Assembly: GCF_010093235.1 (NCBI RefSeq) | Contig: NZ_PDWP01000013.1 | Coordinates: 1 to 64,000, forward strand | DNA length: 64,000 nucleotides | Direction: 5' to 3' | Source of the DNA: Pseudoxanthomonas suwonensis | Lineage (GTDB): Bacteria; Pseudomonadota; Gammaproteobacteria; Xanthomonadales; Xanthomonadaceae | In this document: positions 44,413 through 49,017 of the stretch, in pieces | Numbering within the stretch: the first letter of the stretch is position 1 | Layout: each line of letters opens with the position of its first letter | The notes under the pieces: model-generated | Seen by the model: only the letters and a program-made list of their open reading frames with translations | Told to the model about the DNA's origin: nothing | Databases searched by the model: none | Program-made: the position numbers and the translations under genes

Positions 44413-45210
44413 ATGTCCGTACCGACGTCCCACGCCGTGCCCGATCCTTCGCTGCAACAGGCTCTGTCGCGCCGCTTCGAACGCATCGTGGTGTTCAGTG
44501 GCGCCGGCATGTCCGCCGACAGCGGCATCCCCACGTTCCGTTCCGGCAGCAATGGCCTGTGGCAGGAATTCGATCCACGACAGCTGGCCACGCCGCAAGC
44601 CTGGCGTCGCGACAGCGCCCTGGTCTGGGGCTGGTACGAATGGCGGCGCGGCCTGGTGATGCGGGCCGTGCCCAATCCGGGCCACCTGGCCGTGGCGCGG
44701 CTGCAGCAGGCGCTGGGCGCGCGGGTGGTCACCCAGAACGTGGACGACCTGCACGAGCGAGCCGGCGTGGCTGGCGTACTGCACCTGCACGGCAGCCTGT
44801 TCGCGCCGCGCTGCTTCGACTGCGCGGCACCGCACCCGCTGCCGCCACCTCCGGGCGCGGCACAGCGGCGGCTGGATCCGCCGAGCTGCGCGCACTGCGG
44901 CGGTGAAGTGCGTCCGGGCGTGGTCTGGTTCGGCGAAATGCTCGACGACACCGTCTGGCAGCAGGCGCAGGAACGCATCGCCACCTGCGACCTGCTGCTG
45001 GTGGTCGGCACCTCCGGCGTGGTCCAGCCGGCCGCCGGCCTGGTCGGGCTGGCGCCACGCGATGCGGTCGTGGTCGAGGTCAATCCGCAGCCGGGCGCGC
45101 CGGGCGTTCGCCACATGCACCACGTGCCGCTCGGCGCTGCGGTGGGACTGCCGTTGCTGGTGGAGCCACTGCTGCGCGCCTGGTCCCAAGCCCGTTCCCC
45201 GCGGGGGTGA
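44413..45210 (+). CDS. cobB: NAD-dependent protein deacylase (sirtuin)
   Basis: A 265-residue class III sirtuin. NAD-binding GAGMSADSGIPTFR near 30-43, catalytic His in LHLHGSLF near 122-128, TQNVDDLHERAG near 107-118, and a zinc site of two CxxC pairs (CFDC and CAHC). Tyr and Arg in WGWYEWRR (about 72-79) match the desuccinylase/desmalonylase pair of SIRT5/CobB-like enzymes. Starts 14 bp after the penicillin acylase gene. Confidence 0.92.
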   Translation: MSVPTSHAVPDPSLQQALSRRFERIVVFSGAGMSADSGIPTFRSGSNGLWQEFDPRQLATPQAWRRDSALVWGWYEWRRGLVMRAVPNPGHLAVARLQQALGARVVTQNVDDLHERAGVAGVLHLHGSLFAPRCFDCAAPHPLPPPPGAAQRRLDPPSCAHCGGEVRPGVVWFGEMLDDTVWQQAQERIATCDLLLVVGTSGVVQPAAGLVGLAPRDAVVVEVNPQPGAPGVRHMHHVPLGAAVGLPLLVEPLLRAWSQARSPRG

Positions 45211-45300: not shown

Positions 45301-46995
45301 TCACCCCGCCAGCGCCTCGTTGTGCACGCCCGCCACCGCGCGGCCGGAAGGATCGGCCATCTTCGCGAAGCTGGCGTCCCAGGCGATCGCCGCCGGGGAG
45401 GAGCAGGCGATCGACTTGCCGCCCGGCACCGTTTCCGCCGCGGCCTGGCCGGGGAAGAAGCGCTCGAAGATCGTGCGGTAGAAGTACGCCTCCTTGGTCT
45501 GCGGCGGGGTGACCGGGAAACGCCTGTCGGCGGCGGCCAGCTCGCGGTCGGAGACCTGCGCCTCGGCATGCGCCTTGAGCCCGTCGATCCAGCCGTAGCC
45601 GACGCCGTCGCTGAACTGCTCCTTCTGCCGCCACAGGATCTCCGGCGGCAGGTAGCCGTCGAAGGCCTGGCGCAGGATGCCCTTCTCCATCCGCTGCGGG
45701 CCGTCGCTGCCCTTGGCCACCATCTTGTACTTCGCGTCCATGCGCATGGCCACGTCGAGGAACTCGCGGTCCAGGAACGGCACGCGCGGCTCCACGCCCC
45801 AGGCCATCATCGACTTGTTGGCGCGCAGGCAGTCATAGAAGTTGAGCGCGTCGAGCTTGCGCACCAGCTCCTCGTGGAATTCGCGCGCGTTGGGCGCCTT
45901 GTGGAAGTACAGGTAGCCGCCGAACACCTCGTCGCTGCCCTCGCCGGACAGCACCATCTTCACGCCCATGGCCTTGATCCGGCGCGCCAGCAGGAACATC
46001 GGCGTGGACGCACGGATGGTGGTGACGTCGTAGGTCTCGATGTGGCGGATCACCTCCGGGAGCGCATCCAGGCCTTCCTCGAAGGTGTACTCGAACCCGT
46101 GGTGCACGGTGCCCAGCGCCTCGGCGGCGATCTTGGCCGCGGCCAGGTCGGGCGAGCCCTCCAGGCCGATGGCGAACGAATGCAGGCGCGGCCACCAGGC
46201 CTCGGTCCGGTCGCCGTCCTCGACCCGGTGGCGGGCATAGCGCGCGGCCACCGCGGCGACCAGCGAGGAATCCAGGCCGCCGGACAGCAGCACGCCGTAG
46301 GGCACGTCGGTCATCAGCTGGCGGTGCACCGCGGCCTCGAAGGCTTCGCGCAGTTCCTGCGGCGAGACCTCCACGCCCTCCACCGCGGCATAGTCGCGCC
46401 ACGGCCGCTCGTAGTACCGGGTGAGCTCGCCGGTGGCGGTGTCGTACCAGTGGCCCGGCGGGAACTGGGCCACGTCCGCGCACTCGTCCACCAGCGCCTT
46501 CATCTCGGAGGCCACGCGCAGGCGGCCCTCGCGGTCATGGCCCCAGTACAGCGGCACCACGCCGATCGGATCGCGGGCGATGATCGCGCGCCCCTTCGCC
46601 TTGTCCCACAGGGCGAAGGCGAAGATGCCGTTGAGCCTGTTGAGGAACGAGGCCGGCTCGTCCTCGCGGTACAGCGCGTTGATCACCTCGCAGTCCGACG
46701 CGGTCTGGAACGCGTACGGCTGGCGCAGCTCCTCCTTCAGCAGCTTGTGGTTGTAGATCTCGCCGTTGACCGCCAGCGCCAGTCCGCCGTCCCCGGACAG
46801 CAGCGGCTGCGAACCGCCGGCCGGATCGACGATGGCCAGGCGCTCGTGGACCAGGATGGCGCCTTCGTCGACGTACACGCCGCTCCAGTCCGGGCCGCGA
46901 TGACGCTGGCGCTGGGACAGGTCCAGCGACTGGCGACGCAGGCCCTGCAGGTCGTCGCCCGGTTGCAGGCCGAAGATGCCGAAGATCGAACACAT
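45301..46995 (-). CDS. asnB: asparagine synthetase B (glutamine-hydrolysing)
   Basis: A 564-residue enzyme making Asn from Asp, ATP and Gln. The glutaminase domain starts with the nucleophile Cys2 (MCSIFGIFG), with QRHRGPDWSG and NGEIYNH pockets; the synthetase domain has the PP-loop LLSGGLDSSLV near 240-250 and GEGSDEVFGGY near 350. Length is near E. coli AsnB (554). The 5' leader (47208-46996) encodes an Asn-rich peptide and a strong terminator, indicating regulation by transcription attenuation in response to Asn-tRNA charging. Confidence 0.97.
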   Translation of the reverse strand: MCSIFGIFGLQPGDDLQGLRRQSLDLSQRQRHRGPDWSGVYVDEGAILVHERLAIVDPAGGSQPLLSGDGGLALAVNGEIYNHKLLKEELRQPYAFQTASDCEVINALYREDEPASFLNRLNGIFAFALWDKAKGRAIIARDPIGVVPLYWGHDREGRLRVASEMKALVDECADVAQFPPGHWYDTATGELTRYYERPWRDYAAVEGVEVSPQELREAFEAAVHRQLMTDVPYGVLLSGGLDSSLVAAVAARYARHRVEDGDRTEAWWPRLHSFAIGLEGSPDLAAAKIAAEALGTVHHGFEYTFEEGLDALPEVIRHIETYDVTTIRASTPMFLLARRIKAMGVKMVLSGEGSDEVFGGYLYFHKAPNAREFHEELVRKLDALNFYDCLRANKSMMAWGVEPRVPFLDREFLDVAMRMDAKYKMVAKGSDGPQRMEKGILRQAFDGYLPPEILWRQKEQFSDGVGYGWIDGLKAHAEAQVSDRELAAADRRFPVTPPQTKEAYFYRTIFERFFPGQAAAETVPGGKSIACSSPAAIAWDASFAKMADPSGRAVAGVHNEALAG

Positions 46996-47057
46996 GGATA
47001 GAGCTCCTGGAAGGGGATGGTGCGGTGGTGGTCGGGTCGCACTCCGGTGCCGGGCAT

Positions 47058-47087
47058 AAAAAAACCCGCATCGGCCGATGCGGGTTT
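47058..47087 (-). terminator. asnB attenuator: leader terminator
   Basis: Palindrome 47062-47087 (AAACCCGCATCGG then CCGATGCGGGTTT) followed on the minus strand by Ts to 47058, a strong intrinsic terminator. It lies after the leader peptide stop and 63 bp before the asnB start, so only readthrough transcripts reach asnB. Confidence 0.9.
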
Positions 47088-47109
47088 CTCGTTCGCCGGG
47101 CTGCTCCTG

Positions 47110-47208
47110 CTATGCCCGGTGGCGCCCCCGCATCGGCCGCGCACGGTTGTTCGCCGCAATATTGTTGCGGTTGGCATTGGCCGGATTGGCGCGGTTGATC
47201 GAAGGCAT
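47110..47208 (-). CDS. Asn-rich leader peptide of the asnB attenuator
   Basis: A 32-codon reading frame, ATG at 47208 to TAG at 47110-47112. Asn occupies positions 5, 8, 11, 13, 15, 16, 20 and 21: 8 of 17 residues between 5 and 21, far above chance in a GC-rich genome where AAY codons are rare. Codon use mixes AAC and AAT. It directly precedes the attenuator terminator of asparagine synthetase. I infer it works like the His or Leu leader peptides: ribosome stalling at Asn codons when Asn-tRNA is uncharged. Confidence 0.85.
   Translation of the reverse strand: MPSINRANPANANRNNIAANNRARPMRGRHRA
47127..47139 (-). promoter_or_regulatory. predicted antiterminator segment in the asnB leader
   Basis: In the leader mRNA the 13 bases CGGCCGATGCGGG (codons 24-28) are a copy of the terminator 3' arm and perfectly complementary to 47084-47072 (CCCGCATCGGCCG). 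A ribosome stalled in the Asn run leaves this segment free to pair, preventing the terminator; a ribosome at the stop codon would cover it. Confidence 0.75.
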
Positions 47209-47343
47209 GCGCCGACACTAACCGCCCTCCGCGGCCGCCGCAACGGTTGCCTTGGCAACTGACGCCTCGCTCACGCAGGCCCGCCAATACTCCGCCCACG
47301 GCGCACCCGGCGCCGGCCATGCAGTACTCGCGGAGACACCGCC

Positions 47344-49017
47344 TTGCCAGAAACCAGCCGCCGCCTCACCCGCACCACCCAGGTCGTCAGCCGCCTGGCG
47401 CGCCACCGCCGCATCCTCTCGGGGATGGACTGGAGCGCCGCGCCACCGGTGGAGCCGACCGTGGCCAATGTCTCCGAGGTCGCCGAGGCCAAGGCCTTCG
47501 CCGCCGACCTCGAGGCCCTGGGCCCGGCCTTCATCAAGCTCGGCCAGTCCCTGTCCACCCGTCCGGACCTGGTGCCCGCGGCCTACATCGACGCGCTGGA
47601 CCGTATCCAGGACGAGGTCGCGCCGGTGCCCACGGATGTGATCGAGAAGACCATCGAGGCCGAGCTTGGCGCGAAGATCAGCCGCATCTTCGCCAGTTTC
47701 GACCCGGTGCCGCTGGCGGCCGCCTCGCTGGCCCAGGTGCACCGCGCCACCCTGCGCGACGGCCGCGAGGTCGCGGTCAAGGTGCAACGGCCCGGCATGG
47801 ACGCGGCCATCCGCCTGGACCTGGAAGTCCTGGCCAGCCTGGCCGGCACCGCCGATGCCCTCACCCAGGCAGGGCGCCGCCTGCGCTTCGCCGACTGGAT
47901 CGCCGAGTTCCGCAAGATCCTGCTGCTGGAGCTGGACTACCGCCGCGAGGCCGAGAACCTCGAGCGCTTCCGCGAGAGCCTGTCCGAATACCAGCACCTG
48001 TTCGTGCCGGCGCCGATCTGGGGCCTGAGCACCTGCAGGGTCCTGACCATGGAACTGGTCCATGGTGAGAAGGTCACCTCGGTCACCGGCCTGCAGCGCA
48101 CCGAGATGGACCTGCGCACGCCGGCCTCCGAGCTGATGCGCGCCTACCTGGACCAGGTGTTCGTCAACGGCGACATCCATGCCGACCCGCATCCGGGCAA
48201 CGTGTTGCTGTGCCGCGACGGCAGGCTGGCCCTGATCGACCTGGGCATGGTCGCCCAGGTCGCGCCGCGCATGCGCGAGCGCCTGCTCAAGCTGCTGTTC
48301 GCCGCGGTCGACGCGCGCGGCGAGGACGTGGCGCGCGAGCTGGTGGCGATCGGTACCCGTCTGGAGCAGTTCGACGACGCCGCCTTTGCCCGCGACACGG
48401 GACAGCTGGTGGCCCGCTACGCCACCGGCGGCAAACGCACTTCCGAGGGCCGCCTGCTGCTGGAACTGGTCGCCTGCGCCGCCGAACGCGGCCTGCGCGT
48501 GCCGCCGGAGATCAGCCTGCTCGGCAAGACCCTGCTCAACCTGGAGCGGGTGGTCGATGCGCTGGATCCGGACATGGACGTGCAGGACATGGTGGAGGAG
48601 CACCTGCAGTCGATCATGCGCAAGCAGCTGCGGCGCTCGTTCTCCACCGCCAACATGGCCAGCGAGGCGCTGGAGATGCAGGCGCTGCTGCGCGACGCGC
48701 CACGCAAGATCTCCGACACGCTGTCGCTGCTGGCGGAGAACAGGATGCAGGTCCGCCTCGATGGCCTGGACCACTCCAGGATCATGGAGAACATGCAGAA
48801 GATCGCCAACCGCATCGCCGCGGCGGTGGTGACCGCCGCGCTGCTGATGTCCTCGGCGATGCTGATGCGGATCGAAACACAGACCACCCTGTTCGGCTAT
48901 CCGGTGCTGGCGGTGCTGCTGTTCCTGGTTGGTGCCGCGCTGGGCATCACCATTGCCCTGAGCGCGCTGATCTTCGACCGCCGCGCGCGTCCTTCCGAGC
49001 GCAGCGGACCGACCTGA
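47344..49017 (+). CDS. ABC1/UbiB-family atypical kinase
   Basis: A 557-residue member of the ABC1/ADCK/UbiB family, ATPases linked to ubiquinone biosynthesis. Motifs: the KxGQ signature FIKLGQSLSTRPDL near 63-76, the Ala-rich loop AAASLAQVHRATL near 125-137, VAVKVQRPGM, the catalytic-like DIHADPHPGNVLL near 278-290 and metal-binding LIDLGMVA near 298-305. Two membrane helices lie at the C-terminus (about 495-540). Start: TTG at 47344 with GGAG upstream; no ATG of suitable length precedes the conserved region except an internal one. Not in a ubi operon here, so it may be a UbiB paralogue. Confidence 0.87.
   Translation: MPETSRRLTRTTQVVSRLARHRRILSGMDWSAAPPVEPTVANVSEVAEAKAFAADLEALGPAFIKLGQSLSTRPDLVPAAYIDALDRIQDEVAPVPTDVIEKTIEAELGAKISRIFASFDPVPLAAASLAQVHRATLRDGREVAVKVQRPGMDAAIRLDLEVLASLAGTADALTQAGRRLRFADWIAEFRKILLLELDYRREAENLERFRESLSEYQHLFVPAPIWGLSTCRVLTMELVHGEKVTSVTGLQRTEMDLRTPASELMRAYLDQVFVNGDIHADPHPGNVLLCRDGRLALIDLGMVAQVAPRMRERLLKLLFAAVDARGEDVARELVAIGTRLEQFDDAAFARDTGQLVARYATGGKRTSEGRLLLELVACAAERGLRVPPEISLLGKTLLNLERVVDALDPDMDVQDMVEEHLQSIMRKQLRRSFSTANMASEALEMQALLRDAPRKISDTLSLLAENRMQVRLDGLDHSRIMENMQKIANRIAAAVVTAALLMSSAMLMRIETQTTLFGYPVLAVLLFLVGAALGITIALSALIFDRRARPSERSGPT

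Follow-up and report, generated by a model that had tools for sequence, protein, structure and literature searches.

The asnB leader locus

The analysed window, a stretch of 64,000 nucleotides from Pseudoxanthomonas suwonensis, carries a glutamine-hydrolysing asparagine synthase gene (asnB) whose product scores 868.8 bits against the NCBIfam model NF006949 (cut-off 499). Read directly, the minus strand shows, in 5' to 3' order, a -35-like box, a -10-like box, a short leader open reading frame (ORF), a terminator, a Shine-Dalgarno sequence and asnB. A gene for a Sir2-type NAD-dependent deacylase lies at 44413-45210 on the opposite strand, convergent with asnB. The features of the locus are:

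47246..47259, minus strand: perfect inverted repeat GTTGCCAAGGCAAC, directly ahead of the -35-like box; possible operator
47238..47243, minus strand: putative -35-like box TTGCGG, 17 nt before the -10
47215..47220, minus strand: putative -10-like box TAGTGT, 6 nt before the leader ATG; not a consensus match
47110..47208, minus strand: Asn-rich leader ORF (proposed asnL), 32 codons, ATG at 47208 and TAG at 47110
47146..47196, minus strand: Asn codon block, the proposed sensor; codons 5-21, 8 Asn in 17
47127..47139, minus strand: segment 2 (antiterminator half), in the leader tail inside the ORF; duplicates the terminator 3' arm
47073..47085, minus strand: segment 3, the terminator 5' arm, common to antiterminator and terminator
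47058..47087, minus strand: intrinsic terminator, a 26-bp palindrome plus seven Ts
47004..47008, minus strand: AGGAG Shine-Dalgarno of asnB, by direct reading
45301..46995, minus strand: asnB, asparagine synthase B (glutamine-hydrolysing), NF006949

The first-pass annotation of this DNA had described a 32-codon peptide with Asn at 8 of the 17 positions 5-21, a leader segment that copies the 3' arm of a terminator and can pair over 13 bp with its 5' arm, a perfect 26-bp palindrome followed by a T run, and an asnB start 63 bp further on. Direct reading confirmed these details to the base. The leader ORF, from the ATG at 47208 to the TAG at 47110, translates as MPSINRANPANANRNNIAANNRARPMRGRHRA, with Asn at residues 5, 8, 11, 13, 15, 16, 20 and 21. 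Segment 2, CGGCCGATGCGGG (47139-47127), is complementary over 13 bp to 47084-47072; it is identical to the 13 bases read from one base ahead of the palindrome's 3' half. The two halves, AAACCCGCATCGG and CCGATGCGGGTTT, form a perfect palindrome of 26 bp at 47087-47062, and the T run occupies 47064-47058. In the window, asnB starts with the ATG at 46995, 63 nt past the T run and about 115 nt from the leader stop. A consensus terminator scan of the window returned none at this locus, which we attribute to the T run starting inside an A:T extension of the stem.

Conservation of the Asn-rich leader

The leader in the window reaches 7 Asn in 14 codons, and the maximum in 3000 dinucleotide shuffles of the 480-nt upstream region was 3. 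To follow the leader in relatives, we drew on 80 named asnB loci, titled mostly with Lysobacterales genera (a few are MAGs titled Proteobacteria only), and on 80 upstream regions from an order-wide set of 150 genomes. Upstream regions were taken for 82 of the 97 AsnB genomes besides the source genome, leaving 15; those of G010 and G147 were read separately, outside the 111 regions counted here. Three rows were omitted, L032 and L063 at contig ends and L115 with a misplaced start. The 111 regions comprise 108 distinct sequences, with some species present twice. In each region the ATG or GTG ORF of 12-48 codons with the most Asn within 14 codons was taken, with a threshold of at least four.

Such an Asn-dense ORF lies upstream of asnB in 106 of the 111 regions, nearly all from Lysobacterales, compared with 11 of 2220 dinucleotide shuffles and 0 of 111 reverse strands. 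By group, the counts were 74 of 77 for the named loci together with the window, 9 of 10 for family f1, 20 of 21 for f163 and 3 of 3 for f154; we infer f1 to be Xanthomonadaceae (including Lysobacter) and f163 to be Rhodanobacteraceae. The five regions under the threshold (L023, L031, L056, L143 and L175) hold 3 Asn each. The first-pass annotation had staked its reading on the Asn-rich frame being kept in relatives, and it is. Three loci outside the 111 showed no Asn leader: L042 (titled Holophagales), L061 (titled Rhodococcus) and L108, which belongs to G311, an f1 genome whose AsnB is only 64% identical; counting them, the Asn-dense ORF is found in 106 of 114.

In four outgroup families of the order (f156, f157, f159 and f161), 1 of 44 regions had an Asn-dense ORF. 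Beyond the order, in a small sample, no short ORF of G122 (63% identity) or L087-L091 exceeds 2 Asn in 14 codons, and the maximum for L092 is 3. The switch was thus seen in the sampled families f1, f163 and f154 and not in f156, f157 or f161, nor in f159 bar one doubtful exception, a distribution that suggests the leader arose within a part of the order. The exception, L111, carries upstream of asnB a terminator and an ORF of 22 codons, in which 14 codons hold 4 Asn, and its sampled f159 relatives have no Asn leader; chance or an independent origin would each account for it.

Within the densest 14-codon windows of the 111 leaders, Asn makes up 678 of 1554 residues. The same codons include 357 AAC and 321 AAT against one AAA and one AAG, in windows that were picked for Asn density, a choice that alone does not exclude Lys. 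The near-equal use of AAC and AAT, together with only two Lys codons, indicates that Asn itself is kept. These counts bear on the idea that the A-rich stretch is maintained only as unstructured RNA, a ribosome landing site or spacer with Asn as its by-product. AAC and AAT codons do give unpaired RNA in a GC-rich genome; the near-absence of the equally A-rich AAA and AAG beside 678 Asn codons leaves this explanation with next to no probability.

Third bases gave supporting evidence only, since the motif used for the line-up fixes or restricts the anchor residues. The second Asn pair served as the anchor for aligning 29 rows (26 distinct). Among the distinct leaders, the Asn-rich codon that lies five positions before it varies by 0.00, 0.22 and 0.41 at bases 1, 2 and 3, and in segment 2 the third base is invariant in the Ala and Pro codons and in the last Arg codon. 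The motif by which the rows were picked fixes one Asn codon and limits the one after it, so that those two positions are in part constrained by that choice.

Leader start and alternative pairing

A consensus scan of the window found no consensus sigma-70 promoter at the locus. Across the regions, TTGC stands at -39 to -35 of the in-frame leader ATG in 110 of 111 (98 of them at -36 or -35), in a count that preferred the ATG with TTGC where several were possible; among all ATGs of the same regions, leader ATGs included, it stands at that distance in 132 of 657. With the most upstream ATG taken and no such preference, T is found at -35 in 87%. The leader ATGs showed no Shine-Dalgarno signal (mean -2.7 versus -3.3 for shuffled sequence, 111 leaders); at the asnB starts the mean anti-Shine-Dalgarno value was -6.5, and 98% of the 111 pair at -4 kcal/mol or better. 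The near-fixed TTGC box and the absent Shine-Dalgarno signal suggest that the leader is probably leaderless, with transcription starting at or near its AUG.

The inverted repeat just upstream, GTTGC-N4-GCAAC at 47246-47259, is the sole copy in the window (0.08 expected). With one base relaxed, as GTTGC-N4-G(C/A)AAC, it occurs at -51 to -53 in 24 of the 111 regions and in 0 of 2220 mononucleotide-shuffled regions; the title or family of the bearers is Xanthomonadaceae in every case but L023 (titled Proteobacteria only). The repeat may serve as an operator, perhaps for the divergent UbiB-like gene as well. Its conservation immediately ahead of the -35-like box would suit control of asnB by a DNA-binding protein, or else by translation coupling, past a constitutive terminator. 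We regard such control as extremely improbable, given that the repeat is missing from 87 of the 111 regions that have the Asn leader and that the leader stop in the window lies some 115 nt from the asnB start.

A terminator-like hairpin was called in 104 of 112 regions under the looser T rule (5 T of 8) and in 86 of 107 under the stricter one (6 T of 8). The eight regions with no called terminator have a GC-rich hairpin and a short T stretch. Three very Asn-rich leaders, L043 (10 Asn), L059 and L072, have hardly any T run after their hairpins, and termination may differ there from that in other leaders.

Segment 3 is common to the terminator and the antiterminator, and the two pairings are mutually exclusive. 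In the window, the antiterminator duplex has an energy of -28.2 kcal/mol. Fifty mononucleotide-shuffled leader tails averaged -16.6 and none of them matched it, nor did any of 73 foreign arms. The proposal that an antiterminator can form is upheld for the window. Among relatives, 103 of 104 regions have a duplex between the leader's own tail and its terminator 5' arm that beats the shuffle mean, and in 89 of 104 it beats the mean with foreign arms (less than 70% identical, from other loci).

Because relatives are not independent, we collapsed these to 45 distinct arms. Judged by the length of the pairing run, 38 exceeded the shuffle mean and 31 the foreign-arm mean; only 19 beat their own shuffles singly at 0.05, and 14 did no better than foreign arms. 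Conservation of the alternative pairing, on which the first-pass annotation had also relied, is supported with less consistency than that of the Asn-rich frame. Xanthomonas, Stenotrophomonas, Pseudoxanthomonas and some Rhodanobacter make the best case, several Lysobacter, Dyella and Luteibacter relatives a weak one. One locus, L021, has GGTC in the leader, where most have GGCC, together with GACC in the terminator, a matched change; another, L172, shows GACC in its terminator loop with no corresponding change in its leader.

These observations also weigh on the proposal that the terminator merely ends an unrelated short transcript, an sRNA or small-protein mRNA whose peptide has its own job, and that asnB is read from its own promoter downstream. 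A small mRNA would likewise look like a leaderless ORF ending at a terminator, and the start sites are predictions. Such a transcript is nonetheless very unlikely: the Asn enrichment sits before an Asn-making gene in 106 of 111 regions, the leader tail matches the terminator arm above chance, and only about 60 nt lie between the T run and asnB in the window.

We then folded nine leaders with a ribosome mask extending from 13 nt before to 14 nt after the first P-site base, using a thermodynamic model, beyond whose reach kinetic holding lies. In full-length folds of the window leader, the antiterminator is predicted to prevail when the ribosome stalls at Asn 5, 8, 11, 13 or 20 (P 0.71-1.00). The terminator prevails with a stall at Asn 15, 16 or 21, and also with the ribosome at the stop codon (P 1.00). 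With the ribosome at the stop and segment 3 just emerging, the antiterminator is only partly blocked (P 0.82), because the stop lies 15 nt past segment 2. The Xanthomonas leader L010 gave the antiterminator with P 0.87-0.88 for stalls at seven of its eight Asn codons and 0.00 at the stop; without a ribosome, too, its RNA prefers the antiterminator (P 0.86), which a textbook attenuator would not do. The Stenotrophomonas leader L036 was mixed: a stall at Asn 16 gave 0.42 against 0.57, and with the ribosome at the stop the antiterminator was unblocked as segment 3 emerged (P 1.00). In six other leaders, from Rhodanobacter (L055, L064), Dyella (L053), Lysobacter (L041, L048) and the nearest sampled relative (L172), every full-length state was the terminator (P at least 0.88), so that an antiterminator there would need kinetic persistence. 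In the Lysobacter leader L048 it stays at or below 0.01 even before the terminator is made. Where a separate 1:2 hairpin for pausing or protection would be expected, the predicted folds vary among the nine.

Proposed mechanism, asparagine supply and known systems

The preferred reading is that the leader is, very probably, a classical ribosome-mediated transcription attenuator that senses the charging of Asn-tRNA and controls asnB. Transcription would start at the leader AUG or only a few bases from it, so that a ribosome could load on the new RNA and trail the polymerase. When charged Asn-tRNA is scarce, the translating ribosome would stall in the Asn block and leave segment 2, just downstream, free to pair with segment 3 as it emerges; this pairing would block the terminator and let asnB be transcribed. 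When Asn-tRNA is plentiful, the ribosome would proceed towards the stop, covering or unfolding segment 2, and segment 3 would pair with the terminator 3' arm, stopping transcription at the T run. The first-pass proposal of his/leu attenuator logic applied to Asn is supported by the conserved frame (106 of 111), the preference for Asn over Lys codons and the alternative pairing.

Gene content is consistent with a role of asnB in Asn supply. In the genome of the window AsnRS is present and neither GatB nor AsnA was found; Asn-tRNA should therefore depend on free Asn, for which AsnB looks like the main route. An AsnB paralogue on contig C41 may be a second Asn-making enzyme, because it passes the asn_synth_AEB cut-off (299 bits, cut-off 267.1); it scores 372.6 against the XrtA amidotransferase model (cut-off 816.9), and no Asn leader was found upstream of it. 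Among the 150 genomes of the order, 98 have a long AsnB (E up to 1e-100; one is a fragment) and 42 have GatB (41 above the cut-off), with no overlap and with neither in 10 at these thresholds. AsnRS was found in 142 genomes of this set of 150 (E up to 1e-90), among them most of those with GatB. Because the split between long AsnB and GatB is clean, the origin of the switch can be tested.

Ribosome-mediated attenuators control amino-acid operons in proteobacteria, with the trp, his, leu, thr, ilv and phe leaders as examples. The asnB leader shares with them alternative hairpins, a leader peptide enriched in the amino acid that the pathway makes, and a terminator before the biosynthetic gene; it differs in the amino acid and gene, Asn and asnB, and in being probably leaderless. 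Known Rfam amino-acid leaders scored below threshold at the locus (Leu_leader 20.1 bits versus a threshold of 50, Thr_leader 17.5 versus 55), and nothing in Rfam 15 reached threshold there. T-box leaders of Firmicutes read tRNAs, that of Asn among them. Like a T-box, the asnB leader is proposed to sense tRNA aminoacylation and control termination; unlike a T-box, it carries its codons in an ORF. The T-box model had no hit at its gathering threshold anywhere in the window, and none in 46900-47400 up to E 5.

The proposed mechanism is that of classical attenuation; its use for this amino acid and this gene is undescribed in the literature searched. Our full-text search found nothing on asnB with an attenuator, no Asn leader peptide or attenuation in Xanthomonadales and no Asn attenuator among the papers listed; key comparative surveys lay outside its scope, so absence from print is not established. 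In Xanthomonas, the gene asnB2 (XCV1533), listed with a 4G motif, was unchanged by qRT-PCR (1.0-fold in either medium) in an sX13 sRNA mutant, as given in Table 1 of PMC3771888. If the proposal is true, Asn joins the amino acids known to control their own synthesis through ribosome stalling, and the control of asnB is explained across a large group, with Xanthomonas, Stenotrophomonas, Lysobacter and Rhodanobacter among its members. The leader would also serve, as it stands, as a sensor of how well Asn-tRNA is charged. The understanding of attenuation itself would be unchanged.

A bolder version would make this the first known Asn-reading attenuator, leaderless, with a single origin in crown Lysobacterales where AsnB replaced GatCAB, and with the terminated RNA and the Asn-rich peptide also acting in trans as rnTrpL and peTrpL do; we consider it unlikely as a whole. 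The trans-acting sRNA and peptide are features of the Sinorhizobium meliloti system, as described in PMC7298713, with no counterpart shown for the Asn leader. S. meliloti trpL also differs in reading Trp, in its 14-aa peptide and in belonging to Alphaproteobacteria (PMC7298713). The likeness lies in the start: the trpL/rnTrpL leader RNA begins at the ATG of the leader ORF and is subject to ribosome-dependent attenuation (PMC7298713), and for the asnB leader, too, a transcript start at the AUG of the leader ORF and ribosome-dependent attenuation are proposed.
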